DNA of 36,725 nt. Source: a virus. The stretch is from positions 1 to 36,725 of the IMG/VR virus record IMGVR_UViG_3300045999_001521. The stretch is one strand, 5' to 3'. A program made the position numbers and the translations under genes. Below the pieces are notes generated by a model. That model did no database searches and had not been told where the DNA came from. It was given only the letters and a program-made list of their open reading frames with translations. Positions 9,057-36,725 of the stretch are shown piece after piece; positions within the stretch are counted from its first letter, which is position 1, and every line of letters starts with the position of its first letter.

Positions 9057-10895
9057 ATGGCTAAGTTTGATGTCGAAGGCGCGCGCGCTGCGGGTTACAC
9101 CGACGCAGAGATTGCTGACTACTTAGCCGCTGAGGAAGCGTTTGATGCCGCCGCCGCGCGCGAAGCTGGGTATACGGACGCGGAGATTATCGGTTATATT
9201 TCAGCCGCGCCCGCCAAGCCGGTCAAATCCGAACCCGAACCTGACCGTTCGGCTGCACAATACGCGGGTGTTATCTCCAGCGCACTGTTGCCTTACGCTA
9301 CGGCAGCGGGGCTAGGTGCTGCGGCGACCGGCATCCCTACCGGCGGTCTTGGCGCGCCTCTTGGCGCTGCTGCCGGTGTAACGTCGCTAGGTGTTGCTGA
9401 CCTTGGTACAGCCATATATAACTTAGGTGCGACGCTATTCGACGCTGATCGTATTCCGTTGCCGTCAGAGACAATACGTCGTGCTTATCTAAATGTCGGC
9501 ATCGGACGTAAGCCGCAGACGCCGGGGCAAGAAGTTTTGTTCCGTACTGTCGAAGGCGCTGGCGGGGGACTAAGCGGCGCAACAGCATTTAGAGAACTTG
9601 CGCGGACTACTACGCCCGGCGTAACTCGCAACGTCATGCAGGAACTTGGTCGCGGCCCCGGCGTAACTCGCAACGTCATGCAGGAACTTGGTCGCGGCCC
9701 CGGCGTGCAGACTGCGGCTGGCGCTGGCGCGGCTGCGGCTCCTACGATTGCCCGTGAGTATGCTGGCGTTGAAAATCCTCTTGCACAGTTTGGCTTGTCG
9801 GTGGCTGGCGGCATGGCTGGCGGTCGGCTGGCAACGCCGCGCGCTACACCTGTCACATCTGATGAATTAGAGCGGCTAACAAATGCGGCGTATTTGCGTG
9901 CAGAGGAAGCGGGCGTTCAGTTCGACCCCGCTGCTATTTCACAACTAACCCAGAACATTCGCACGTCGCTTTCCGACCCTAAAGTGCAGTTTGATGAGGT
10001 TCTCCACCCAAGGGTGAACCGCGTTTTACAGCGTATAGATGAGGTTATAGCTGACGCTCAAAAAAATAACACGCCGATTTCGTTTTCACAAATGGAAATT
10101 TTACGCCGCGTCGCGCGGACCGCTGGGAGTAGCCTTGATAAAGACGAGCGCCGCTTAACATCCAATATTATTCGGCAGATCGACGACTTTGTGGACGCGC
10201 CGCCCGCTAACGCTGTCATAGCTGGCGATGCCCCCGGTGCAGCGTCCGCTATAAAAGAAGCGCGGACGGCGTATCGCCGCAAAAGCCAAGCTGACAATAT
10301 CAAAAATATGATAGTAGAAAAAGCAACCGATACTGCGGAAGGGCTGTCCGCTAATACGATACGGGCGGCGGCGCGGTCGGTAAGTAAAAGCGAAAGTAAG
10401 AAGCGGGCTTTTGATCCTGTCATTCAAAAACAGATAAAAGATTTGGGCCGCGGCACCGGCGGTCTGTCAACGCTTCAAGGGCTTGGGGTGTTTGGCCCTA
10501 GAATACCCACAACAACACCTGAAATGCTCCGCGCAATCCCTTCTGCGGGCTTGTTGACCGGGTCCGGTACAGCGGCCTACAGCGGTTCGCCGTGGTTAGC
10601 GGGCTTGGGCCTCACAATGGCAGGCACTGGCATGGCATCTAACGCTGCCGCTAACCGGCTTGCCACTAACAGGGTGAACGCAATGATAGATCAGGCGCGG
10701 GGCACGCCTGCCCGCGAAATGTTTAGGCCTCAGATAGCCGCGCAAGTCGCACAGCAGTATAACTTTCCTGACGTAGACCCTGAATCCGGTGAACCACTGG
10801 TAGATGTAGATTTTTCTGAAGGGTATGCCGCGCCGATATACGGCAGGCTACCTAAAGAAAAGCAGTTCGTAAATCTTAATACTATGAGACGTTAA
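9057..10895 (+). CDS. Large ejection protein with tandem repeats, 612 aa
   Basis: This is the third ejection gene, in the P22 gp16 position. Two copies of an AR.AGYTDAEI..Y motif (about residues 9-22 and 34-47) open the protein; this motif recurs at the N-termini of many large phage internal proteins. A Gly/Ala-rich hydrophobic stretch (about 75-130) could insert into membrane. Residues around 187-214 contain a perfect duplicated 14-residue unit, PGVTRNVMQELGRG. The middle (270-440) is strongly helical and charged, and a second Gly/Ala-rich region lies at 505-545. The role is inferred from position and composition: forming or crossing the membrane channel for DNA entry. Confidence 0.75.
   Translation: MAKFDVEGARAAGYTDAEIADYLAAEEAFDAAAAREAGYTDAEIIGYISAAPAKPVKSEPEPDRSAAQYAGVISSALLPYATAAGLGAAATGIPTGGLGAPLGAAAGVTSLGVADLGTAIYNLGATLFDADRIPLPSETIRRAYLNVGIGRKPQTPGQEVLFRTVEGAGGGLSGATAFRELARTTTPGVTRNVMQELGRGPGVTRNVMQELGRGPGVQTAAGAGAAAAPTIAREYAGVENPLAQFGLSVAGGMAGGRLATPRATPVTSDELERLTNAAYLRAEEAGVQFDPAAISQLTQNIRTSLSDPKVQFDEVLHPRVNRVLQRIDEVIADAQKNNTPISFSQMEILRRVARTAGSSLDKDERRLTSNIIRQIDDFVDAPPANAVIAGDAPGAASAIKEARTAYRRKSQADNIKNMIVEKATDTAEGLSANTIRAAARSVSKSESKKRAFDPVIQKQIKDLGRGTGGLSTLQGLGVFGPRIPTTTPEMLRAIPSAGLLTGSGTAAYSGSPWLAGLGLTMAGTGMASNAAANRLATNRVNAMIDQARGTPAREMFRPQIAAQVAQQYNFPDVDPESGEPLVDVDFSEGYAAPIYGRLPKEKQFVNLNTMRR
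9615..9698 (+). repeat. Perfect tandem 42-bp duplication inside an ejection gene
   Basis: Bases 9615-9656 are repeated exactly at 9657-9698, with 8 bases of a third copy following. The unit is in frame and duplicates 14 residues. Perfect nucleotide identity means it is recent or kept identical by slippage. Confidence 0.95.
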
Positions 10896-18814: not shown

Positions 18815-21163
18815 ATGAGTGAGGATCGCACTAAGTTTATAGAGTATATAACCGGATTGGCGACAGACAATGTCGGCGAGACGGCTTTAGTCGTGCGTCA
18901 GAAGCCGCAGCATGACAGCGACGGCAATTTGATATTCCATGCAGACGGCGCGCCGAAGGCGACCTTCCCTGCGTTCCTGCCAGAAAAGACCCGCATGAAA
19001 GAAGGCGAGGCATGGTATGTCAACACAGGCTCGTTCATCGTTGACCGCTTCGTAGACGGCAAGCCGTCCGCCAAGTCCAGCAACGTCGAGTATGTGTTGT
19101 TTATGATGCTGGATGATGTCGGCACTAAGTCGAAACAGCCGCCGCTTGACCCGACATGGATATTGGAAACCAGCGAAGGTTCGTTCCAGTGGGGCTACGC
19201 GTTCAGCGAACAGCCACGCAAGGGTGACTTCTGCGCTGCCATCAAGGCCATCGCGGACGCGGGCTACACTGATCCCGGCGCGACTAACGCCGTTCGCAAC
19301 TGCCGTATTCCCGGGAGCGTCAACCTGAAGCGCGGGCGCAATAACTTTCCTGCGCGGCTGGTAGAGTTCCACCCTGAGCGGGAATACACGCTGGGCGAAA
19401 TCTGTGAGGCGCTGGGTGTCACGCCAGAGGAAGGCGACACAGCCGAATATAAAGCAGTGCAGTTGCGCGACACTGGCCTTGACAACGTCCTGACATGGCT
19501 TGCGGACAACAACCTAGTCCTTAGCAACCCTAACGCTGACGGCTGGTGCGGCATCGTCTGTCCTAACCATCAAGAGCATAGCGACGGCATGGTCGAGGCA
19601 CGCTACAAGCCGCTAGACCGTTCGTTCTGCTGCTATCACGGGCATTGCCAAGACTTAGACAGCCGCACGTTCCTTGATTGGGTTGCCAATGAAGGTGGTC
19701 CGAAGGTAACGCCGGGTTTGCGTGACGAGTTAATCGCTGAACGTCTGGCGTCGATGTATGAAAAGATAGCGCCGAATGACGCCTTTCCTGATGAAGCCGC
19801 AGCGCGTGTGCGTGAGGTCGAAAAGAAAGAAGCAGGACGGCTGGAGCAAAGCGAATGGTTCGTGCGTTTCGCTTACATCCAGTCCGATGACTGCTATTTT
19901 GACATGGTGACGCGTCAGGAGATAGCCCGCAACGTCTTTAACGCGTTGTTCCGGCACGTTGACTGCAAATCCATACATAAGAAAACCCGCAGCGTGCAGG
20001 CATCCGTCTATTATGACGAGCGCCGTCAGGATCGCGGCGCGCCTGCGCTGTCGGCTGTGACGTTCGCCGCTGGCGATGACGTTCTGGTGACGCGTGACGG
20101 CTTGGTCTACGGCAACAGGTGGACAAACGCACGCCCTGACGTATCGGGCAGCGACAAGATTGCAGACCATGATGTCGAGCCTTGGCTCCAGCATTGCCGC
20201 AATCTGGTCGCGGATGATGTCGAGTTAGACCACATCCTTGACGCTATGGCGTTCAAGATACAGCATCCAAACATCAAGATTAACCATGCGATCCTGATTG
20301 GCGGCGATGAAGGCGCTGGTAAGGACAGCATGTTTCAGCCGTTCCTGTGGGCACTTGGCGGCAAGCACTGGCGCAATCGGTCAGTCATTGAGGCTGGCGG
20401 CTTGGACAGCCAGTGGGGCTATTCGCTTGAGGCTGAGGTTGTCATCCTGAACGAGTTGAAGGAACCAGAGGCGCGTGAGCGCCGCGCTATGGCTAACAAG
20501 CTGAAGCCACTGATTGCTGCACCGCCTGAAACGCTGTCGGTCAACCGCAAGGGTATGCACCCTTATGAGTTGGTCAACCGCCTGATGGTGATTGCCTACA
20601 CGAACGATCCGCTACCTATTACGCTGCCGACACAGGACAGGCGTTGGTTCTGCGTGTGGACGCACGCGCCGCGTATGGCACCAGACGCAGCCAAAAAGCT
20701 GTGGGGCTGGTATGAAAGCGGCGGCTATGAGAAGTGCGCTGCTTGGCTGCATCAGCGCGACGTGTCGGCGTTCAACCCTGCGGCTGCGCCGCCAGTCACC
20801 GAATGGAAGCTGAACATGGTCGAGCATGGCATGAGCGTAGCGGAAAGCTATCTTGTGGACATGATGCGGCTTCGGTCGGGCGTGTTCTCCGATGGCGTCA
20901 TCGGTGGGCCGTTCCATCGTATCTGCGATGCACTGGCAGTCAACGTCCCTGCCGGCGTGAAGGTTCCACAGGCGGCGCTGCTACACGCTCTCAAAGAAGC
21001 TGGCTGGGTTGACGTGGGCCGCATCAACTCGAAAGAATATCAAAACAAGAAGCATATCTTTGCCGCGCCTGATGTGCTTGCGAAATACAATAAGGCAGAC
21101 TTGCGCCGCATGGCAGAGGAATTACCTAAGTCGAGCATCATGCCAAACTTAGGCAGGAATTGA
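18815..21163 (+). CDS. Primase-helicase, D5/VirE-like SF3-type ATPase
   Basis: The start is set at ATG 18815 (MSEDRTKFIEYITG), preceded by TAGAGGAG; an ATG at 18743 would overlap polymerase by 61 bases. In this 782-residue protein the first 240 residues resemble the archaeo-eukaryotic-type primase half of phage primase-helicases, including FAAIKAI-like helices and NCRIPGSVNLKRG. A Cys/His cluster follows at about 243-280 (WCGIVCPNHQEH, then CCYHGHC). The ATPase domain has Walker A GGDEGAGKDSM near 495-505, VVILNELKE as Walker B-like, and TNDPLPI with QDRRWF as the sensor region. It fits DUF5906-type phage helicases, which unwind and prime the fork for the upstream polymerase. Confidence 0.87.
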   Translation: MSEDRTKFIEYITGLATDNVGETALVVRQKPQHDSDGNLIFHADGAPKATFPAFLPEKTRMKEGEAWYVNTGSFIVDRFVDGKPSAKSSNVEYVLFMMLDDVGTKSKQPPLDPTWILETSEGSFQWGYAFSEQPRKGDFCAAIKAIADAGYTDPGATNAVRNCRIPGSVNLKRGRNNFPARLVEFHPEREYTLGEICEALGVTPEEGDTAEYKAVQLRDTGLDNVLTWLADNNLVLSNPNADGWCGIVCPNHQEHSDGMVEARYKPLDRSFCCYHGHCQDLDSRTFLDWVANEGGPKVTPGLRDELIAERLASMYEKIAPNDAFPDEAAARVREVEKKEAGRLEQSEWFVRFAYIQSDDCYFDMVTRQEIARNVFNALFRHVDCKSIHKKTRSVQASVYYDERRQDRGAPALSAVTFAAGDDVLVTRDGLVYGNRWTNARPDVSGSDKIADHDVEPWLQHCRNLVADDVELDHILDAMAFKIQHPNIKINHAILIGGDEGAGKDSMFQPFLWALGGKHWRNRSVIEAGGLDSQWGYSLEAEVVILNELKEPEARERRAMANKLKPLIAAPPETLSVNRKGMHPYELVNRLMVIAYTNDPLPITLPTQDRRWFCVWTHAPRMAPDAAKKLWGWYESGGYEKCAAWLHQRDVSAFNPAAAPPVTEWKLNMVEHGMSVAESYLVDMMRLRSGVFSDGVIGGPFHRICDALAVNVPAGVKVPQAALLHALKEAGWVDVGRINSKEYQNKKHIFAAPDVLAKYNKADLRRMAEELPKSSIMPNLGRN

Positions 21164-21221
21164 CAACCATTTGGTTGCAATGATATATGGATAGGGTTGG
21201 CAATGCTCCGCTGACCTTTTT

Positions 21222-21257
21222 AAGCCCCCTGCGTCCTCACTCCGCAGGGGGCTTTTT
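21222..21257 (+). terminator. Strong intrinsic terminator of the replication block
   Basis: A perfect 12-bp stem, AAGCCCCCTGCG (21222-21233) with its complement at 21243-21254, has a 9-base loop and runs into TTTTT. It lies 58 bases after the primase-helicase stop. Orientation is plus only; the other strand lacks a U tract. Confidence 0.9.
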
Positions 21258-21286
21258 AATTCTTCCACACCATCGCTGCGGCGGTG

Positions 21287-21313
21287 GTCCCCGCTGGTTT
21301 CGGCCAGCGGGAC
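21287..21313. other. Second hairpin at the convergent junction
   Basis: 21287-21297 pairs with 21304-21313 with a single bulged C and a 6-base loop. It begins 30 bases after the plus-strand terminator and one base beyond the stop of the last leftward gene. It may mark the 3' end of the leftward transcript, although no U tract follows on that strand. Confidence 0.5.
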
Positions 21314-21314
21314 T

Positions 21315-21392
21315 TTAAAACCTAATCTCGTCATCGGCCCATTCGTAAATGTCCCAACCGAAATTGTCGAACAGGAATTGGCGCAGGGTCAT
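21315..21392 (-). CDS. Microprotein, 25 aa, end of the leftward operon
   Basis: An ATG at 21392 opens 25 codons (MTLRQFLFDNFGWDIYEWAD, then DEIRF). It overlaps the stop of the next upstream frame as ATGA and has AGGAAC about 13 bases upstream. The peptide is aromatic and acidic. The overlap chain is the main support; composition alone would not be enough. Confidence 0.45.
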   Translation of the reverse strand: MTLRQFLFDNFGWDIYEWADDEIRF

Positions 21393-21505
21393 TTGCTTTG
21401 TTCCTGTATCGTGCGGGGCTTTGTCATCGGTATTTTTAACCGCTTCGCAATTCGGCGGGTGGATGCAGTAGTGCCTTTGCGGTGCTTAGGCGCAATTTTG
21501 GTCAC
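21389..21505 (-). CDS. Very basic microprotein, 38 aa, GTG start
   Basis: A GTG at 21505 overlaps the TGA of the upstream gene as GTGA and opens 38 codons ending in a TGA that overlaps the next ATG. The product (starting VTKIAPKHRKGTTASTRRIA, then KRLKIPMTKPRTIQEQSK) has about a dozen Lys/Arg and almost no acidic residues. It would bind nucleic acid or acidic proteins; function unknown. Confidence 0.5.
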   Translation of the reverse strand: MTKIAPKHRKGTTASTRRIAKRLKIPMTKPRTIQEQSK

Positions 21506-21849
21506 TGCCCCTTCTCCCTTATCTCCAGTCCAAAGTCGGCCAGTGTTACGCGAAGGTCAGCGGCATCGGTGTCTGCGTTATACCAGCCCAACCTTCTCAT
21601 CACCTCCACCAGCGGGTCAGCTTCGATATCGTTATTCCGATAACGATGAACCTGTGCATTTTTTGCACCAGTTGCCGCTGTGATAATGTGCCCTCTGGCC
21701 TCCTGCACTATGTCGAGTGCATCGCTTGCGCCGTCAATGTGGCAGGCATAAAGGCACAGCCATGTTTGAAGGTCGCCAAGGCGCTCCATCATTAACTGCG
21801 TTTCTTCTTCGGGTAGGGCGTTCAAAACGCTAATTGCTTCGTCTGTCAT
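21502..21849 (-). CDS. Unknown small protein, 115 aa
   Basis: The protein is mostly helical, with an acidic N-terminal half (MTDEAISVLNALPEEETQLM), a Cys-containing helix (WLCLYACHIDGASDALDIVQ) and a mixed C-terminal end (ADLRVTLADFGLEIREKGQ). I see no known motif, signal or span. Its ATG overlaps the upstream stop as ATGA and its TGA overlaps the GTG of the next gene. It belongs to the leftward accessory operon. Confidence 0.72.
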   Translation of the reverse strand: MTDEAISVLNALPEEETQLMMERLGDLQTWLCLYACHIDGASDALDIVQEARGHIITAATGAKNAQVHRYRNNDIEADPLVEVMRRLGWYNADTDAADLRVTLADFGLEIREKGQ

Positions 21850-22034
21850 GTCTCATCCTTTAATGCTTTTTCTGCGTCCTCGATCAATTCGATGGGTGGG
21901 TAGCGCAGATAGGACACATGGTCTTTGCCTATCACGCCTAGAAACTCCAGATATTCCATGAGGCGGTAGGCTAAGGTTTCCCCTGCGCGTTCGATATATC
22001 GTTCGGGCAGTGCGTATTCGTCATCGTCATCCAT
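21846..22034 (-). CDS. Unknown acidic small protein, 62 aa
   Basis: This acidic, soluble product begins MDDDDEYALPERYIERAGET and continues with a helical LAYRLMEYLEFLGVIG segment and a final IELIEDAEKALKDET helix. It follows the upstream gene by 4 bases and overlaps the next by ATGA. No family is recognised. Confidence 0.7.
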   Translation of the reverse strand: MDDDDEYALPERYIERAGETLAYRLMEYLEFLGVIGKDHVSYLRYPPIELIEDAEKALKDET

Positions 22035-22038
22035 TTGC

Positions 22039-22224
22039 TCACATCCATCTAGTTATGAAGGTTACGCCGCCCACAGTGCGGCACTTGAAGGCTTTGCCGT
22101 TGCGTATGCCGTATTGGCTCACGTTGCGGCTGGTGCGCTTGGCATCGCCCTTCTTGGTGGCTGGCATGGTAGCGCTCTCGCCGACTTCCAGCGTTCCTAT
22201 GGGGTATGTCATTGGTCTAGGCAT
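22039..22224 (-). CDS. Small basic beta-type protein, 61 aa
   Basis: The product is MPRPMTYPIGTLEVGESATM followed by a KKGDAKRTSRNVSQYGIRNG segment, then AFKCRTVGGVTFITRWM. The layout 'signal-like strand, GES, basic helix with R..V..Y, then a strand pair' recurs in small phage proteins of unknown function and looks like a compact DNA-binding module. The start overlaps the preceding stop as TAATG. Function remains open. Confidence 0.7.
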   Translation of the reverse strand: MPRPMTYPIGTLEVGESATMPATKKGDAKRTSRNVSQYGIRNGKAFKCRTVGGVTFITRWM

Positions 22225-22757
22225 TATTCACACCCCCATACTTGCGTTGATGTTTTAATGTCAGTCGGCCAGCCTGTGTCGATGGTGAAGCTGCGCTCCT
22301 CGAACAAGACCATGTTGGTCGGTCGGATCAGCAGACGGTCGCCCTCAGTTTTCATAAACATAAATTCCTTACTTTGTTCTGGTGCTGCGCTGAACCCGTC
22401 ACTGTGTGGGCAAGCGGTAAATAGACATGTTGCGCGGCTGTCAGTGCCATCGTAACGCGCCGTTAGGTCTGTTAGGTAGTCGTAGCGGATAACGTCAAAC
22501 TGCGTCCCGTAACAGTCCCATACTTGGGCCTGTTGTAACGTCCAGTAATAGTCAGGACTATCGCTAAACGCCAGCGCGTGCGGCGGTAGGTTGCGGTAGA
22601 CCGCGCCGCACTCCAGCATCACATGGCAGCCCCATGCGCGGTTTGGTGTCGAACGTAACGCAAACCACACAGCGGGTTCGTAGCGCGGCTTGCCTTTGCG
22701 TATAAATGCGCTGTCAACGTAGACATACAGATGGTGCGGCAGATTGCGGCTGCTCAC
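22224..22757 (-). CDS. Unknown protein, 177 aa, GTG start
   Basis: I start it at the GTG at 22757, which overlaps the upstream TGA as GTGA and has AGGAGC in front; longer frames would overlap the previous gene fully. The product has an N-terminal LYVYVDSAF strand, a WFALRSTPNRAWGCHVML segment, many Tyr/Trp and six Cys, and ends KTSTQVWGCE. It looks like a globular alpha/beta protein without membrane segments. It is the largest gene of the leftward accessory block and I cannot assign a family. Confidence 0.68.
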   Translation of the reverse strand: MSSRNLPHHLYVYVDSAFIRKGKPRYEPAVWFALRSTPNRAWGCHVMLECGAVYRNLPPHALAFSDSPDYYWTLQQAQVWDCYGTQFDVIRYDYLTDLTARYDGTDSRATCLFTACPHSDGFSAAPEQSKEFMFMKTEGDRLLIRPTNMVLFEERSFTIDTGWPTDIKTSTQVWGCE

Positions 22758-22894
22758 TTGCTTTGCTCCTTTTCGCGTTCTGCGCGGCGTTCCGCGAAGG
22801 TCTTGCCATCGAGGCCGCGTAGCGGCCATGCGCTGTCGGATGATATGCGATGCTTGCGCCCCATAGGTGCGGCTTGCTGTGGTGTCTTAATCAT
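22754..22894 (-). CDS. Basic small protein, 46 aa
   Basis: The start at ATG 22894 (MIKTPQQAAPMGRKHRISSD) has AAAGGAC upstream; a longer frame would run into the previous gene. The end is a charged helix (TFAERRAEREKEQSK). The product is highly basic and probably partly disordered. Its stop overlaps the next GTG. Confidence 0.65.
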   Translation of the reverse strand: MIKTPQQAAPMGRKHRISSDSAWPLRGLDGKTFAERRAEREKEQSK

Positions 22895-22905
22895 TGGTTT
22901 GTCCT

Positions 22906-23241
22906 TTACAGTTCGATTGTAGTTGTCGGCTTGGGCTTGCGGTCGTTCAGTCTGTCCAGCCAATAGACTTGCTCAGGGCCGAACGTCCGCGCTGCATGGT
23001 ATTTGAACAGCGCCAAGGCCAGCGGGTCGTAGCCTTTGCTTTTGTGCGTCACAATCAGCGGCGATGGTATCATGGCCTCAAGGTCTGTCCGCCGTGCGCG
23101 GTGGCGCGTGGTGGCGGCTTCGTCTATGTCGCGCATCGTCAGGCGTAGGTTGTGTTCCCTGTTGATGTGCTGCAACACGGCGCTTCTGTCGCTGATGTAG
23201 CTACACAGGTGCTTTATTTGCTTGCGTATGGCGTAATCCAT
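22906..23241 (-). CDS. Putative helix-turn-helix-like small protein, 111 aa
   Basis: The ATG at 23241 (MDYAIRKQIKHLCSYISDRS) overlaps the upstream stop as TAATG. Residues about 8-40 (LCSYISDRSAVLQHINREHN, then LTMRDIDEA) have the spacing of a helix-turn-helix: a helix, a short turn, then an INREHN recognition-like helix. The rest (YDPLALALFKYHAARTFGPE) is a mixed helical domain. A DNA-binding regulator of the phage or host is plausible; the match is pattern-level only. Confidence 0.65.
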   Translation of the reverse strand: MDYAIRKQIKHLCSYISDRSAVLQHINREHNLRLTMRDIDEAATTRHRARRTDLEAMIPSPLIVTHKSKGYDPLALALFKYHAARTFGPEQVYWLDRLNDRKPKPTTTIEL

Positions 23242-23441
23242 TAGCTTTTGTCCCGCTTGCGGTATTTGCCAGTGAGCGGGTCGCGCAGGATGCCGTTGCG
23301 CTTCCAGTAAAGCAATTCGGCTACATCGCGTGTCCACATATCGCGCCATTTGTCGCCGCGCTTGACAGCTTCCCATAGCAGAAAGGAGGTGAACAGTTGC
23401 GCGGCTAACATCGCAACGATTGCAATTTGATATTTGTTCAT
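23241..23441 (-). CDS. Small inner-membrane protein, 66 aa
   Basis: A single N-terminal span (IAIVAMLAAQLFTSFLLW) follows MNKYQ, and the remaining 45 residues are strongly basic and cytoplasmic or periplasmic, ending DPLTGKYRKRDKS. AGAGGATTGACCAA precedes the ATG. The stop overlaps the next start as TAATG. A host-envelope modifier or superinfection-exclusion protein is possible for such an early membrane protein; this is inference. Confidence 0.68.
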   Translation of the reverse strand: MNKYQIAIVAMLAAQLFTSFLLWEAVKRGDKWRDMWTRDVAELLYWKRNGILRDPLTGKYRKRDKS

Positions 23442-23445
23442 TTGG

Positions 23446-23505
23446 TCAATCCTCTAATAATAGGGTCAATAGGAATAGAGCGGCTCCAGCGATTACCGCA
23501 ATCAT
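23446..23505 (-). CDS. Hydrophobic micropeptide, 19 aa
   Basis: An ATG at 23505 overlaps the upstream TGA as ATGA and opens only 19 codons: MIAVIAGAALFLLTLLLED. It is one membrane span with an acidic end and its gene carries the ribosome site of the following membrane protein. Either a true membrane micropeptide or a coupling leader for the next gene. Confidence 0.4.
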   Translation of the reverse strand: MIAVIAGAALFLLTLLLED

Positions 23506-23732
23506 TGGGCCTCAAGTTGCGCTTGCAGCATATCGGCTTCTGCTTGCCAGTGGTCGCGGCTTGCGGTCAATTCGCGTATCTCGTCTTGCGCGGCCTCTAG
23601 TTGGTCTTCAACGTCCAACAGTTCGGCTAGGCGCTCTGCCAGCACAACAGCCAGTTCGTGATTGCGGTCTAATGCCGTGCGGACTAATTCGCTGTCCGAT
23701 AGCATCCGTAGATAGTTGCGGTCTTCTGTCAT
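23502..23732 (-). CDS. Coiled-coil small protein, 76 aa
   Basis: After a short head (MTEDRNYLRMLSDSELVRTA) the rest forms a continuous heptad-patterned helix rich in Leu, Glu, Ala and Gln (LAVVLAERLAELLDVEDQLE, then ELTASRDHWQAEADML). It should dimerise as a coiled coil and act in the cytoplasm. Its start overlaps the upstream TAA as TAATG, after GAGGAGC. No family assigned. Confidence 0.7.
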   Translation of the reverse strand: MTEDRNYLRMLSDSELVRTALDRNHELAVVLAERLAELLDVEDQLEAAQDEIRELTASRDHWQAEADMLQAQLEAQ

Positions 23733-23872
23733 TAATCTTGCTCCTCATCTGCAAAGAATGCTTCCCACGACTCGCGGTCTATCGAAACCCAAATATTGTC
23801 ATCATATTCCCGCATCACATCGGCGCTCACTAGTATGTCAAACGCCAACGACATTTTTTCTTTATCGCTCAT
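23732..23872 (-). CDS. Acidic small protein, 46 aa
   Basis: The start ATG 23872 (MSDKEKMSLAFDILVSADVM) has AGAGGAGC in front; a longer frame would overlap the previous gene. The product is acidic and ends SWEAFFADEEQD. No motif is visible. It is linked to the next gene by a TAATG overlap. Confidence 0.65.
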   Translation of the reverse strand: MSDKEKMSLAFDILVSADVMREYDDNIWVSIDRESWEAFFADEEQD

Positions 23873-23873
23873 G

Positions 23874-24071
23874 TTATGCTCCTCTTGCTTTAGTGATTGC
23901 GGTTTCGATGGTGTCGCGGACATCCATCCATTCGGCGCGGTCAGTGTAGCCGCTCTTGCGAATGTATGCGGATGCCGCTTCTAGCGCCAACAACAAGTCA
24001 GGCGCGGCATCGTGCATCAGTTTGCGGCGGCGGTTGCGCTCTTGCGCGGCGGCGTAGTAATCAAAAGCCAT
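23874..24071 (-). CDS. Small helical protein with APDLL motif, 65 aa
   Basis: The product is helical and begins MAFDYYAAAQERNRRRKLMH, followed by DAAPDLLLALEAASAYIRK. The 'AAPDLL.ALE' helix is frequent in small phage proteins of accessory operons, but its function is unknown. GAGGGAAG provides the ribosome site and the gap to the next gene is one base. Confidence 0.7.
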   Translation of the reverse strand: MAFDYYAAAQERNRRRKLMHDAAPDLLLALEAASAYIRKSGYTDRAEWMDVRDTIETAITKARGA

Positions 24072-24072
24072 G

Positions 24073-24162
24073 TTATGCTTCCCTCACTGTTTTAATGATT
24101 GCGTAGATTGATAGGGCTAAGACACCCCAGAAAAATGCGTTGATTGCTATATGCGCGGTCAT
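24073..24162 (-). CDS. Single-span membrane micropeptide, 29 aa
   Basis: An ATG at 24162 overlaps the upstream TGA as ATGA and opens 29 codons: MTAHIAINAFFWGVLALSIY, then AIIKTVREA. It is one membrane span with a basic C-terminal end, matching a positive-inside type. It ends one base before the next ATG region. The overlap supports it as a real gene. Confidence 0.5.
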   Translation of the reverse strand: MTAHIAINAFFWGVLALSIYAIIKTVREA

Positions 24163-24386
24163 GCTGTCAGTTCCTCTTCCCATTCAGTCCAATATATTTG
24201 GATATCGCCAATGTCGGCATCGTCATCGTCATCGTCGATATTGCCTATGTAGAAATCTGAAAATTCATCAGGCGTGACGTTTTTGTGCAAGCACTCGTCG
24301 CTGCAATAATACTCGTTTGCACCTTCGATGACGTAGCCCTCGTTCATGCCAGCGCCGCAAGCGGTGCATTGTCGTGCGTGTGTCAT
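24159..24386 (-). CDS. Small zinc-ribbon protein, 75 aa
   Basis: Two Cys pairs, CTACG at residues 7-11 and CSDEC at about 28-32, with a YCSDECLHK context form a treble-clef or ribbon-like zinc site. This 'CxxCG.GMNEGY ... YYCSDECLHK' pattern is common in phage accessory proteins. The rest is extremely acidic (DDDDDDADIGD) and ends WTEWEEELTA. The acidic tail could mimic DNA or bind a host basic protein; this is inference. Ends overlap both neighbours as ATGA. Confidence 0.78.
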   Translation of the reverse strand: MTHARQCTACGAGMNEGYVIEGANEYYCSDECLHKNVTPDEFSDFYIGNIDDDDDDADIGDIQIYWTEWEEELTA

Positions 24387-24712
24387 GCTGCATCCACTTC
24401 TGCATCAGTGTCTTTATCGTTTAAAGTGTCTGCCCATGCTTCGAGGTCGTGCAGCGTCATCGCGTCAGCATCAATCAATTCCTCATGGTCGGTGTATAGG
24501 CTCGACCAACAAGCATGGATTGCGTCATCGCCGCCTAGCGGGATGTAAAGCGTAAAGGGGTAATCCTCTAACCACAGATAGACGTTGCCGTTGCTGTTGT
24601 TTTCGGCAGCATGGCCGTAGCCTGACAGGTTCATGCCAAGGTCGCTGGCCTTAGTGATTAGAAGTGCAATCTTGCGGATTGCGTTTGCACATAGGTTTTC
24701 TTGAATTTCCAT
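24383..24712 (-). CDS. Unknown protein, 109 aa
   Basis: The protein starts MEIQENLCANAIRKIALLIT, has a beta-type middle (NVYLWLEDYPFTLYIPLGGD) and an acidic helical C-terminus (ADTLNDKDTDAEVDAA). ATAGGAGTGGG lies before the ATG. It is the second gene of the leftward block. No family is recognised and no membrane segment is present. Confidence 0.72.
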   Translation of the reverse strand: MEIQENLCANAIRKIALLITKASDLGMNLSGYGHAAENNSNGNVYLWLEDYPFTLYIPLGGDDAIHACWSSLYTDHEELIDADAMTLHDLEAWADTLNDKDTDAEVDAA

Positions 24713-24751
24713 AGTTTCCCACTCCTATAATTGGCACTAGCGCCATCCTCG

Positions 24752-24769
24752 GCGCGGATTGCTCCGCGC
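24752..24769. other. Hairpin between the first two leftward genes
   Basis: A perfect 7-bp stem, GCGCGGA (24752-24758) with TCCGCGC (24763-24769), has a TTGC loop. It lies in the 67-base gap after the first gene of the leftward operon and lacks a U tract on either strand. It may stabilise or attenuate the transcript. Confidence 0.45.
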
Positions 24770-24779
24770 TCCGGTGGTG

Positions 24780-24974
24780 TTAGGCAAACTTGCCTGTGCG
24801 AGCGTAAATCATTGGGTTCTTTTCCACGCACAAGCACTCGCCTTCGGTGTGGCCGTATTTGATTGCCTTAGCGCGCATCTTGGCCTTGTTCTCCGGCGAT
24901 ACGCCGATGTTGCCGATGCAAGCGATTGCGTATGTGTAAAGGTGCGTTTCCCACCAAGGTGTTTTGCGTGTCAT
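24780..24974 (-). CDS. First gene of the leftward accessory block, 64 aa
   Basis: The 64-residue protein reads MTRKTPWWETHLYTYAIACI, then GNIGVSPENKAKMRAKAIKY and a Cys-containing GECLCVEKNP segment. It is basic with no span. It has AAGGAG 10 bases before its ATG and stands about 26 bases from the predicted start of the leftward promoter, so it is probably the first and strongest early product. Function unknown. Confidence 0.72.
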   Translation of the reverse strand: MTRKTPWWETHLYTYAIACIGNIGVSPENKAKMRAKAIKYGHTEGECLCVEKNPMIYARTGKFA

Positions 24975-25005
24975 ATTGTATTGCTCCTTGTTGTCTTGAT
25001 ACCCT

Positions 25006-25034
25006 CTTATCTACCCTCAAACTAACATAGTCAA
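25006..25034 (-). promoter_or_regulatory. Sigma70-like promoter for the leftward accessory block
   Basis: Reading leftward, TTGACT (25034-25029) and GATAAG (25011-25006) are separated by exactly 17 bases. The predicted start near 25000 gives a leader of about 25 bases before the ATG at 24974. The -35 is near consensus and the -10 is moderate. Confidence 0.6.
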
Positions 25035-25082
25035 CAACAAAATGTGTTGCGCTAAAAAAAAGTTTCCTGATGAAAATAAATC

Positions 25083-25091
25083 TGTGGATAA
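25083..25091 (-). promoter_or_regulatory. Perfect DnaA-box match
   Basis: TGTGGATAA on the plus strand is the exact complement of the strong DnaA box TTATCCACA. It sits in the A/T-rich gap just upstream of the leftward promoter. Only one perfect copy was noticed. Confidence 0.6.
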
Positions 25092-25244
25092 CTTTATGTC
25101 GTGAAAGGGTGAAAAGTTGTTGTTTGGGTGGTTGTTTTGCGAGGCGAAATGACAACCGGAAAAATGGCAGAAGCCAGCGGGTTTGGGATGTGAGGGAAGT
25201 TAAATTGTCATTGATATGATATTTGTTTATGGATGAAAAAAAGA

Positions 25245-25258
25245 GGTATTATAATACC
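25245..25258. repeat. Perfect 14-bp palindrome containing TATAAT
   Basis: GGTATTATAATACC equals its own reverse complement. It includes a -10 consensus (25250-25255) on the plus strand and a mirrored one on the minus strand. It could be an operator over a promoter or a local melting site; no good -35 at the right spacing was found. Confidence 0.6.
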
Positions 25259-25376
25259 CGTGTATTTTTACGGCGACTTGAAACGTCATGGCAACTTGAC
25301 GTTTTTGACGTGATGCAAAAATGTCACACTTCCCAAACACCCACGCAAAACGCCCACGCAAACCAACTTGAATTGT

Positions 25377-25394
25377 CATGACGTCCATGACGTC
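25377..25394 (+). repeat. Tandem 9-bp iteron CATGACGTC x2
   Basis: The nonamer CATGACGTC occurs at 25377-25385 and exactly again at 25386-25394. Three further TGACG/CGTCA copies lie at 25284-25288, 25297-25301 and 25306-25310. Initiator or repressor binding is the natural reading. Confidence 0.65.
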
Positions 25395-25403
25395 CCATGC
25401 AAA

Positions 25404-25420
25404 ATGTTGCACCGCAACAT
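25404..25420. repeat. Inverted repeat ATGTTGC-3-GCAACAT
   Basis: Perfect 7-bp arms surround a 3-base centre. It follows the tandem iteron by 9 bases and has the size of a dimeric repressor operator. Confidence 0.6.
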
Positions 25421-25444
25421 AGCCAGCCAGCAATATGTTTTTTA

Positions 25445-25460
25445 CTGACACTGTTGTCAG
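25445..25460. repeat. Inverted repeat CTGACA-4-TGTCAG
   Basis: Perfect 6-bp arms with a CTGT centre. Each arm contains the TGACA/TGTCA pentamer that recurs through the control region. Confidence 0.6.
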
Positions 25461-25521
25461 CCAAAAGGAAAAGGCCAACCCAGAATCTGCGCTATAGAAC
25501 AAAACCAGAACGCTTCGAGCA

Positions 25522-25541
25522 GGGAGGGGAGGGTAGGAGGG
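25522..25541 (+). other. Canonical G-quadruplex motif
   Basis: GGGAGGGGAGGGTAGGAGGG contains four runs of at least three G with loops of 1, 1 and 5 bases. It lies about 94 bases before the HNH start on the plus strand. The fold is predicted from pattern only. Confidence 0.6.
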
Positions 25542-25552
25542 CCGAGCGCCGC

Positions 25553-25563
25553 GTGACTGTCAC
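25553..25563. repeat. Inverted repeat GTGAC-T-GTCAC
   Basis: Perfect 5-bp arms around one base, 12 bases after the G-rich motif. It overlaps the last TGTCA copy of the region (25558-25562). Confidence 0.5.
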
Positions 25564-25600
25564 GGGCATGGTCCGCAAACAAAATAATTTTTTTTATTAT

Positions 25601-25628
25601 TTGTTTTTTAAAAAAATCAGAGTATAGT
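25601..25628 (+). promoter_or_regulatory. Promoter giving a possibly leaderless HNH/terminase transcript
   Basis: TTGTTT (25601-25606) and TATAGT (25623-25628) are 16 bases apart. The predicted start, 6-8 bases after the -10, falls at 25634-25636, on the GTG of the HNH gene. No ribosome site precedes that GTG, which fits a leaderless mRNA. Confidence 0.5.
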
Positions 25629-25634
25629 TTGCTT

Positions 25635-26105
25635 GTGACCGATCTCGACAAACTTAAAGCCAAATACACTTATGACCCAGCTACGGGCGCGTTTACGCGC
25701 AACACTCCTTGGGGTAAGCAAAAGGTCGGGGATGTTGCAGGGTGCATATCGCCCCAAGGCTATCGGTATTTATCTTTTGATGGCAAAGCTACGCCGGCGC
25801 ACAGGCTTGCTTGGTTTTGGGTACATGGCGAATGGCCGGCTGCCGACGTAGACCACATAAACCGTGACCGCTTAGACAACCGCATTGACAATTTGCGCTG
25901 CGTCACGCGATCTGTTAATTGTCATAACGTTGCTGGCCGCGCATCCTCTGGAGAAAAAGGTGTGAGCGTTACATCTAAGGGTAAAAGCTGGGAAGCTAGG
26001 ATAAGCGTAAACCGCAAACATATCTATTTAGGTTCGTATGCTTCAGTGGAAGAAGCCGCCGCAGCTAGAAAAGGTGCTGAGATTGCGTTAGGGTTGCAAG
26101 CATGA
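25635..26105 (+). CDS. HNH endonuclease with AP2-type DNA-binding domain
   Basis: This 156-residue protein from GTG 25635 (TTG 25629 is the alternative) has the layout of AP2-HNH enzymes. An N-terminal beta part (YTYDPATGAFTRNTPWG, then GYRYLSFDGK) leads to AHRLAWFWVHGEWPA and the HNH core DHINRDRLDNRIDNLR at about 73-88, with a CVTRSVNCHN element. The C-terminal AP2-like part reads GVSVTSKGKSWEARISVNRK, then IYLGSYASVEEAAAARKGAE. Most relatives are free-standing homing endonucleases, but HNH proteins beside terminase genes also assist packaging in some phages. It overlaps the small terminase start as ATGA, so expression is tied to packaging genes. Confidence 0.88.
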   Translation: MTDLDKLKAKYTYDPATGAFTRNTPWGKQKVGDVAGCISPQGYRYLSFDGKATPAHRLAWFWVHGEWPAADVDHINRDRLDNRIDNLRCVTRSVNCHNVAGRASSGEKGVSVTSKGKSWEARISVNRKHIYLGSYASVEEAAAARKGAEIALGLQA

Positions 26106-32008: not shown

Positions 32009-32170
32009 ATGGGGTTTGGTGGCGCCCTTCGTAACGGTATTGCGCTCGGTCTGGGCAGCATTATCTCGTTTTTTTCGGGCTATGGTCCGGATCAAGCGCA
32101 GGGCAACCTCGAAACTGAAAATGGTGACAACCTCGTCCAAGAGGACGGCGGTTTGTTGCTACTGGAGTAA
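32009..32170 (+). CDS. Small protein with fibre-cassette C-terminal tag, 53 aa
   Basis: ATG 32009 opens 53 codons. A Gly-rich hydrophobic start (MGFGGALRNGIALGLGSIIS) could cross or touch a membrane; the end is acidic and reads ENGDNLVQEDGGLLLLE. That last part is repeated at the end of the 30-residue protein at 32918. The next gene begins a fibre 4 bases later. Function unknown. Confidence 0.68.
   Translation: MGFGGALRNGIALGLGSIISFFSGYGPDQAQGNLETENGDNLVQEDGGLLLLE
32126..32170 (+). repeat. Fibre-cassette tag repeat, copy 1
   Basis: These 45 bases recur at 32966-33010 with three substitutions. Both copies end a small gene at its TAA and directly precede a fibre or spike gene (32174 and 33015). 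They encode DNLVQ(E/K)DGGLLLLE. Confidence 0.9.
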
Positions 32171-32173
32171 AAA

Positions 32174-32734
32174 ATGGCAGACTTAAAAATTTCTCAACTT
32201 ACGGGCGCATCAACGCCTCTTACAGGTACTGAGGTTGTCCCTCTTGTTCAAAGCAACGTAACTAAAAAAGTTGCTGTTGCGGATTTGGTGAGCGGGTTTG
32301 CGGCAAGTAAAAACCCTACGTTTAGCGCGTTTGGCGACGTGGCTCAAACTCTGACTGCTGGTGTTTATACCAAAGCCACTCTGGGGTCTGAGGAATACGA
32401 CACGAACAACAATTTTGCATCCAGCACTTTCACCCCCACTGTCGCCGGATATTATCAACTGAATTTGAAACTATCAGTTGCCGGCACAAGTGTGACTCGC
32501 TTAATTGCCGATTTCCGTAAAAATGGTAGCGGCGCAAACAATGGCCGCACATTAGATTACGGTTTTACGCTTGGTTCTTTTGGGATTTTTACCGCTAGCA
32601 ATATCATGTATTTTAATGGGTCAACTGACTATTGCGAAATATGGGTATATTTGGATGGGGTCGGCACTTTGACCATCAGTAGCAATGATAAAAATACTAC
32701 TTTCTTTCAAGGCACTTTAGTGAGGGCGGCATGA
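32174..32734 (+). CDS. Short tail fibre with C1q-like head domain, 186 aa
   Basis: The N-terminus MADLKISQLTGASTPLTGTE, then VVPLVQSNVTKKVAVADL, is the standard virion-anchor segment of many phage fibres. From about residue 55 the chain has the jelly-roll pattern of C1q/TNF-like trimeric domains (FTPTVAGYYQLNLKLSVAG, then RLIADFRKNGSG and a final FFQGTLV strand). It probably forms a short trimeric receptor-binding fibre. The stop overlaps the start of a putative fibre chaperone as ATGA. Confidence 0.8.
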   Translation: MADLKISQLTGASTPLTGTEVVPLVQSNVTKKVAVADLVSGFAASKNPTFSAFGDVAQTLTAGVYTKATLGSEEYDTNNNFASSTFTPTVAGYYQLNLKLSVAGTSVTRLIADFRKNGSGANNGRTLDYGFTLGSFGIFTASNIMYFNGSTDYCEIWVYLDGVGTLTISSNDKNTTFFQGTLVRAA

Positions 32735-32917: not shown

Positions 32918-33010
32918 ATGGCTGTAAGTCTTTCTTGTTTTGCTGGCGTAAGCTGGCAGTTTCTTGACAACCTCGTCCAAAAGGACGGCGGATTGTTGCT
33001 GCTGGAGTAA
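32918..33010 (+). CDS. Micro-gene with duplicated fibre-cassette tag, 30 aa
   Basis: AAGGAATCTTGA leads to ATG 32918 and 30 codons, MAVSLSCFAGVSWQFL followed by DNLVQKDGGLLLLE. The last 14 residues nearly equal the end of the 53-residue protein at 32009. The tailspike starts 4 bases after its stop. It may be a recombination product carrying the tag, or a genuine micropeptide. Confidence 0.45.
   Translation: MAVSLSCFAGVSWQFLDNLVQKDGGLLLLE
32966..33010 (+). repeat. Fibre-cassette tag repeat, copy 2
   Basis: Second copy of the 45-base segment at 32126-32170, differing at three positions. It ends at the TAA immediately before the tailspike gene. Confidence 0.9.
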
Positions 33011-36357: not shown

Positions 36358-36725
36358 ATGAGTAACTCGATTTTAACCATCGACATGATCACGCGCAAGG
36401 CGCTTGAGATTCTCGAAAACAACTTGGTTCTTACACGTAACGTAAACCGTCAGTACGACGACAGCTTCGCTGTTGAAGGTGCTAAAATTGGTTCAACCCT
36501 GCGTATCCGTCTTCCAGACCGCGCACTTGTAACTGATGGCGCAGCCCTTCAGGTACAGGACGACAACGAGCAGTTCACAACTCTGACCGTTGCCAACCAG
36601 AAGCACATCGGCGTCAACTTCACGACCGCTGAATTGACCATGCAGTTGGACGACTTCGCAGAGCGTGTTCTCAAGCCACGTATCTCGCAGCTTGCTTCGA
36701 GCATCGACGCAGACGTTGCCACATC
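36358..36725 (+). CDS. Major capsid (coat) protein, 5' part
   Basis: ATG 36358, with TTTAGGATTATTTCC upstream, begins the coat gene: MSNSILTIDMITRKALEILE, then NNLVLTRNVNRQYDDSFAVE. From 36418 onward it repeats the codons that start at base 3 of the window, and it runs off the window end. Together with 1-1151 it gives the full coat protein of about 402 residues. It follows the scaffold by 15 bases. The last four bases of the window no longer match the start copy except the final one. Confidence 0.9.
   Translation, partial: MSNSILTIDMITRKALEILENNLVLTRNVNRQYDDSFAVEGAKIGSTLRIRLPDRALVTDGAALQVQDDNEQFTTLTVANQKHIGVNFTTAELTMQLDDFAERVLKPRISQLASSIDADVAT
36416..36725 (+). repeat. Terminal overlap with window start (circular map)
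   Basis: 36416-36721 corresponds to 1-306 with three substitutions (positions 9, 11 and in the GCTTT/GCTTC codon near 53), and the match ends at 36721. This shows a circular or circularly permuted genome of about 36,415 bp. Confidence 0.93.

Follow-up and report, generated by a model that had tools for sequence, protein, structure and literature searches.

Several replication initiators that carry their own helicase are known to bind short repeats at their origins. SaPI Rep and SCCmec Cch2 bind iteron origins through their C-terminal domains (PMC7581432). In the SaPI Rep-ori systems, including that of SaPI5 PriRep1, a self-loading initiator helicase places this domain on short iterons, and in SaPI5 a primase is fused to the helicase (PMC7581432). 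Cch2 is an initiator helicase whose C-terminal dsDNA-binding domain acts on three short AAGTG iterons within 23 bp (PMC7581432). The P4 alpha protein, a primase-helicase, uses a winged helix to bind repeats at its origin, according to the section of PMC4234260 that cites Yeo 2002. Replication proteins of the pRN1/BIP-1 type have the domain order AEP, SF3 and winged helix, and such proteins have been suggested to recognise a large stem-loop (PMC4234260). In the RepA-ori modules of Vibrio cholerae PLE, the DNA-binding domain of the initiator covaries with the iterons of the origin and has undergone repeated swaps, with attack by the origin-directed nuclease Odn as the proposed driver (PMC8263062).

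The window analysed here, a virus record of 36,725 bp, contains a gene-free control region. We read it, with a probability of about 0.88, as a replication origin like those of P4 alpha and SaPI Rep, joined to two divergent promoters and with iterons that the phage's own primase-helicase would bind. Whereas the SaPI origin lies immediately downstream of rep, the region is 3.8 kb away from the initiator gene and next to those for terminase; the phage is a podovirus in which no integrase was recognised, and its clade has many iteron specificities. Cch2 differs in having no fused primase and a single site, in place of two opposed arrays on either side of an AT-rich centre; P4 alpha has a TOPRIM primase where the present protein has an AEP/RepB'-like one. 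The three-domain order is identical to that of the pRN1/BIP-1 type, but iterons and a small central palindrome take the place of the suggested stem-loop. In PLE, whole domains of a RepA_N initiator are swapped between two types, in contrast to the wing-loop point changes and many types seen here.

A gene-free region between divergent gene units

The ends of the window repeat over 310 bp, which leaves about 36.4 kb of unique sequence. The two copies (1-310 and 36416-36725) are inexact, matching at 304 of 310 positions, and may stem from a mixture of strains or from the points at which assembly of a circularly permuted genome stopped. Judged by its relationship to MW202483, the virus is a podovirus with a P22-like portal. 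The MAG bins in which terminase relatives occur bear various labels, Rhodoferax/Burkholderiales among them, which is a lead only as to the host.

A rightward replication block comprising DUF2800, DNA polymerase A and the primase-helicase ends at 21,163, leftward small genes start from 24,974, and the rightward terminase-portal-scaffold genes start at 25,635 with an HNH gene. The latter two units diverge from a gap (24,975-25,634) that is, at 660 bp, the longest stretch of the genome without a plausible gene. The initial annotation had described it as the only long gene-free stretch among otherwise overlapping genes; its rank holds, but there are five further gaps of 338, 280, 227, 218 and 191 bp. 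The same annotation placed the region far from the polymerase genes. It begins 3.8 kb beyond the stop of the initiator gene (21,163 to 24,975), with leftward genes in between, and not directly downstream as in the SaPIs. Genes within the gap were considered and rejected: most relatives have in-frame stops in the stretch aligning to 25,397-25,627, and the ORFs are not kept as proteins. The two longest gap ORFs had no PHROG match, and an Rfam search gave merely one sub-threshold miRNA match.

Two repeats were observed elsewhere in the window. An exact 42-bp (14-codon) tandem duplication lies within the gene of a large structural/ejection protein (9615-9698), and a 46-bp direct repeat (93%) is found just 5' of two consecutive structural genes (32125-32170 and 32965-33010; ATG at 32174 and 33015), which suggests a duplicated leader.

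A terminase search provided 80 related loci, in most of which the gap adjoins TerS directly and the HNH gene is missing. In the window this gene is an insert that sits precisely at the junction of the late promoter with TerS. MW202483 has a related insertion upstream of TerS, and one further locus (L028) has an HNH match between TerS and TerL. Alignment of the gaps revealed conserved islands, namely the leftward leader, the DnaA-box block, the central palindrome, the G-rich block and the late promoter, interspersed with short repeats whose sequence varies from phage to phage. The features of the window are as follows.

18815-21163, + strand: PrimPol/VapE-type primase-helicase, the proposed initiator (DUF5906, RepB_primase and NrS-1 matches)
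21026-21049, + strand: codons 738-745, wing loop that tracks the iterons (N738, K740, Q743, N744; covariation and structure model)
24975-25634: whole control region, putative replication origin with divergent promoters (longest gap; homologous non-coding region upstream of TerS in relatives)
24999-25060, - strand: leftward promoter and leader, with TTGACT (25034-25029), a weak -10 TAGATA 15 nt on, the Shine-Dalgarno motif AAGGAG and ATG at 24974
25070-25094, + strand: conserved block with an exact DnaA box TGTGGATAA at 25083-25091 (identity in relatives)
25149-25157, + strand: iteron ATGACAACC of the left array (iteron type of the AACC subclass)
25197-25272: AT-rich centre, putative unwinding element (75% AT versus 46% in the genome; between the arrays, as in relatives)
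25245-25258: central palindrome GGTATTATAATACC, unique in the window; the same or an equivalent (TAACCTATATGGTT, GGTATATAGATACC) is central in about 50 relatives
25281-25314: degenerate iterons from a PWM, ATGACGTTT (25281, -), TTGACGTTT (25296, +) and ATCACGTCA/TTGACGTGA (25305/25306)
25335-25360: 13-bp tandem pair, from the sequence
25378-25395, + strand: two perfect tandem iterons ATGACGTCC of the right array, 9-bp spacing (predicted from N738/K740)
25404-25420: inverted repeat ATGTTGCACCGCAACAT, putative binding element, from the sequence; a related TGTTGC...GC(A/T)GCAT block occurs in many relatives
25522-25541, + strand: G-quadruplex-type motif GGGAGGGGAGGGTAGGAGGG (enrichment in relatives)
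25553-25563: palindrome GTGACTGTCAC after the G-run (kept in most relatives in the alignment)
25601-25634, + strand: rightward late promoter TTGTTT-17-TATAGT (25,601-25,628), 6 nt 5' of GTG at 25635
25635-26105, + strand: HNH endonuclease gene (HNH_3 and AP2-like domain matches), a local insert between promoter and TerS by comparison with relatives

Iterons and the wing of the primase-helicase

The gaps of the relatives contain a median of 9 short repeats (iterons), mostly 9 bp apart, in two opposed arrays that flank an AT-rich centre bearing a conserved palindrome. Among same-strand pairs, the 9-bp spacing accounts for 144 and the runner-up spacing for 22. With the TAACCTATATGGTT or GGTATTATAATACC palindrome taken as the centre, 143 iterons to its right are on the + strand and 9 on the - strand, and to its left 163 are on the - strand and 99 on the + strand. 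This layout is constant while the iteron itself switches between ATGACGTCC, ATGACAACC, NNGCCTAG/A, ATGACCCAG, ATGACCCAA, TTGTCCAC and others; phage-specific iterons at 9-bp spacing further include ATAGCCTAG/ATCGCCTAG, ATGACCTACC, ATTGTCCAC, ATGACCCAC, ATGACTCAC and GTTTACAT. Conservation of the repeats, proposed earlier as a check, thus takes a particular form: relatives keep the layout but change the repeat sequence in concert with the initiator. Genome-wide counts placed the densest 700-bp bin of a single core at or beside the gap in 14 of 14 records, three of which (G007, G010 and G012) have a small core excess over the rest of the genome. In the pooled relatives of the window's iteron class, ATGACGTC occurs 88 times versus 0.4 expected. 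A GGCGACTTG-like motif, at 25272-25280 in the window, precedes the right-array iterons and was counted 58 times on the + strand and 5 times on the - strand of the 80 gaps (0.22 expected per strand and gap); it is possibly a second binding element.

In the window, the clustered direct repeats are weaker than in the relatives yet above chance, and an AT-rich region adjoins them, as in iteron origins. ATGACGTCC occurs exactly twice in the genome, both times in the 25,378-25,395 tandem (0.19 expected). A PWM trained on the relatives, with the window excluded, gave 6 matches above 9 bits versus 0.47 expected, some of them overlapping on opposite strands. As a set, the window's iterons rank with the weakest; they received no valid label from the automatic caller, and the iteron-class statistics exclude the window. 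The "iteron" of the initial annotation corresponds to the 13-bp tandem pair at 25,335-25,360, which exists and is loosely echoed in relatives, but the functionally important repeats are probably the 9-bp ATGACGTCC/ATGACAACC elements. Other phage-specific repeats (CACGCA, CACCGTGACGCGAT) are expanded between the iteron arrays in the gaps of some relatives (L014, L007), comparable to 25335-25360. The inverted repeats noted earlier were recovered in a sequence scan of the gap.

The proposed initiator combines an SF3/D5-type helicase with a primase, as is expected of an initiator of the P4-alpha/SaPI-Rep type. DUF5906 matched above and RepB_primase slightly below the cut-off, and the helicase part of the NrS-1 primase (6k9c) was found with E 2e-10. 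A Foldseek search with the whole protein returned NrS-1 CTR, RepB', D5/E5 and, weakly, PriRep1 (7pds). The full-length AlphaFold model was poor and of low confidence. A model of the C-terminal 123 residues predicts a winged helix (helices 675-685, 700-707 and 719-729; strands 695-697, 732-737 and 746-750) with a core pLDDT of 87-92, in which residues 738-745 form the wing. Foldseek matches of this domain in the PDB were nearly all winged-helix proteins (MarR, PadR, RTP), none individually significant (E 0.04 or worse), and NrS-1-type helicase-primases were its best matches in a viral library; a sequence search of the PDB with this domain alone gave nothing meaningful.

Only DNA was used to call the iteron classes, for which the core list had been fixed from the regions; the classes were then compared with every alignment column in 54 close phages. 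The adjusted mutual information (AMI) with iteron class was 0.76 for primase-helicase residue 738, 0.63 for 740, 0.56 for 744 and 0.45 for 743 (numbered from 18,815; residues 762, 764, 768 and 767 in the 806-aa frame), against a mean of 0.021 over 791 columns. Residues 738 and 740 were the top two among thousands of columns over the scanned phage proteins; the best column outside the primase-helicase, in the SNF2 helicase, reached 0.31 (n=21). As iteron readers, TerS and TerL (best columns 0.126, rounded 0.13, and 0.06 in close phages) were rejected, as were the portal, polymerase, SNF2 helicase, nuclease and small leftward proteins, which had no associated column.

The resulting rule links N738 and K740 to (GT/AA)CC, G738 with T/S/V740 to CTA(A/G), G738 with K740 to CTAC, A/H738 with V/I740 to CCAG, A738 with G/S740 to CCAA, and K/A/H738 with R740 to (C/T)CAC. 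A basic residue 740 accompanies a terminal C of the iteron (G on the opposite strand), which would fit ordinary Lys/Arg-guanine contacts. The covariation spans well over 100 relatives, and a quick tree of the protein, built without its C-terminus, requires at least 18 changes of iteron class. In phylogenetically independent pairs, GTCC/AACC went with N738 in 8 of 8 and the terminal C with K740 in 8 of 8 (p 0.008 each). Phylogeny is common to all columns, yet the wing columns alone stand out. Three close phages with an A-C-V wing count against the rule, with mixed CTAG/CCAG iterons; they may be intermediates.

The rule was fixed before 63 phages, the gaps of which were absent from the first set, were newly fetched. 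The dominant repeat was predicted in 59 of them, the other 4 had the predicted core second and none was wrong outright, although many belong to two classes (A-G and K-R), so that the effective number of independent tests is below 63. Shuffled predictions scored 23.3 on average and 35 at most (2000 shuffles). Beyond the 63, six phages had too few repeats for scoring and three had residues outside the rule. Because the repeats change in step with two to three primase-helicase residues, the iteron sequence can be predicted from the protein. The window encodes N738/K740, for which ATGAC(GT/AA)C is expected, and the ATGACGTCC tandem was found in its gap. The suggestion of the initial annotation that the region may be the replication origin is thereby supported at the level of sequence, held-out phages included.

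In the proposed mechanism, the primase-helicase, with its AEP/PrimPol-type primase, SF3 helicase and C-terminal winged helix, would bind the 9-bp iterons through the winged helix, and wing residues 738 and 740 would read their variable 3' half. The AT-rich centre would then melt. Opposed iteron arrays flank this centre, which suggests that two helicase rings pointing apart are loaded and that initiation is bidirectional or takes two steps; binding, melting and loading of this kind have been proposed for SaPI Rep and P4 alpha. DNA synthesis would start at the gap, possibly assisted by host DnaA through the conserved DnaA box. The iteron arrays, their layout and the specific wing covariation are the parts that the sequences support; physical binding, melting, hexamer loading and the start of synthesis are inferred.

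Promoters, G-rich block and DnaA box

A promoter/terminator scan alone yielded 8 promoter-like sites versus 6.3 expected, which is chance level, so that conservation is the real test of the promoters. The block containing the leftward promoter (24996-25060) is kept at about 77-89% in relatives. Its TTGACT is present, but the promoter is weaker than the initial annotation implied, with TAGATA at a poor spacing of only 15 nt. Close relatives share the rightward promoter throughout: 48 of 66 distinct upstream sequences have the pattern TTG..-17-TA...T followed after 6 to 8 nt by the TerS ATG, which places the expected transcription start within 0-2 bases of the start codon, and a Shine-Dalgarno motif is found in 3 of the 66. 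Because the promoter abuts the start codon and Shine-Dalgarno motifs are so rare, the late operon most likely starts with a leaderless mRNA. In the window, the HNH insert occupies the position of TerS after the promoter (TATAGT-6-GTG). The conserved rightward promoter agrees with the earlier proposal that transcription diverges at the gap. The accompanying "early/late switch" has its divergent promoters but is unproven, because no repressor or operator was identified.

The promoters lie at both ends of the iteron arrays, and this gives rise to the main rival explanation, that the iterons are operators through which the winged helix of the primase-helicase represses or activates the divergent promoters while replication starts elsewhere. 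Autoregulation is common among DNA-binding initiators, and a replication start at the gap would have to be accepted in spite of a missing skew signal: the skew inflection that the initial annotation had proposed as a check did not appear, and GC skew in the window and four relatives, raw or gene-strand-corrected, had no consistent extreme there. The arrays, however, are centred on the AT-rich palindrome and on neither promoter, binding by a helicase-primase is an origin hallmark in SaPI, SCCmec and P4, and the genome-wide core counts revealed no second dense iteron cluster that could be the origin. A purely regulatory role is therefore improbable, and dual use of the iterons as origin and operator is possible.

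The G-rich motif reported initially is present as a quadruplex-type run on the + strand (25,522-25,541). Such motifs occur on the + strand in 28 of 80 regions and on the - strand in 1, compared with 0.0009 per 250 bp elsewhere. With the palindrome that follows it (25522-25563), just upstream of the late promoter, the run could form a packaging or fork-stalling element. This strand-specific block and palindrome near TerS, and the fact that the gap abuts TerS in relatives, would also suit a gap that serves chiefly in packaging, as a pac/cos signal for the small terminase. In close phages the iteron type followed none of the TerS columns (best AMI 0.126), and we consider this reading very unlikely. 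The G-rich block, being separate, is unaffected by the TerS result and may still be a packaging element.

The exact DnaA box TGTGGATAA at 25,083 is, as initially annotated, present, and it is the only copy in the genome. The surrounding block is 100% identical over 25 bp in one relative (L008) and near-exact in three others (L032, L028 and L048). Exact boxes are enriched in the homologous control regions (26 of 80, versus 0.003 per 800 bp elsewhere); about half of the relatives' gaps have none even with one mismatch tolerated, and the window has one exact box instead of the cluster that marks a DnaA-dependent origin. A phage DnaA-like HTH protein was rejected as reader of the box, since it was above cut-off in two distant relatives only and is absent from the window. 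In one of these, MW202483 (L002:3847-4143, -), the DnaA domain-IV HTH forms a protein of its own (Pfam E 1e-17), and the match in G005 was also above cut-off. An origin driven by host DnaA, with incidental phage repeats, would account for the strong enrichment of the box in these gaps and for its place in a conserved 25-bp block, but so many gaps lack the box, and so nearly all have iterons that track the phage initiator, that it is the least probable of the explanations.

Meaning for the phage clade

Set against the known systems, two things appear to be new: a phage initiator of the AEP type whose iteron origin lies 3.8 kb off, and a fine-grained wing code with many switches in one clade. 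For a large group of uncultivated freshwater phages, the analysis proposes where replication starts, which protein initiates it and a testable rule for iteron recognition by two residues; the origins of these phages could be predicted from protein sequence alone. It speaks against stem-loop recognition by AEP-SF3-winged-helix initiators as a type (PMC4234260). The clade also represents a natural mutagenesis experiment, in which the DNA specificity of the initiator changes and the helicase does not.

It is conceivable, and put forward tentatively, that these freshwater podoviruses possess a rapidly switching lock and key of initiator and origin, in which one to two wing residues set a 4-base iteron specificity and the at least 18 switches suggest positive selection. 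If so, a switch might, for example, let a phage evade nucleases aimed at its origin, satellites or, in co-infection, competing relatives, and the phages would fall into origin compatibility groups comparable to immunity groups. If the origin type governs co-replication or attack, it would add a new dimension to the conflicts of phages with one another and with satellites.
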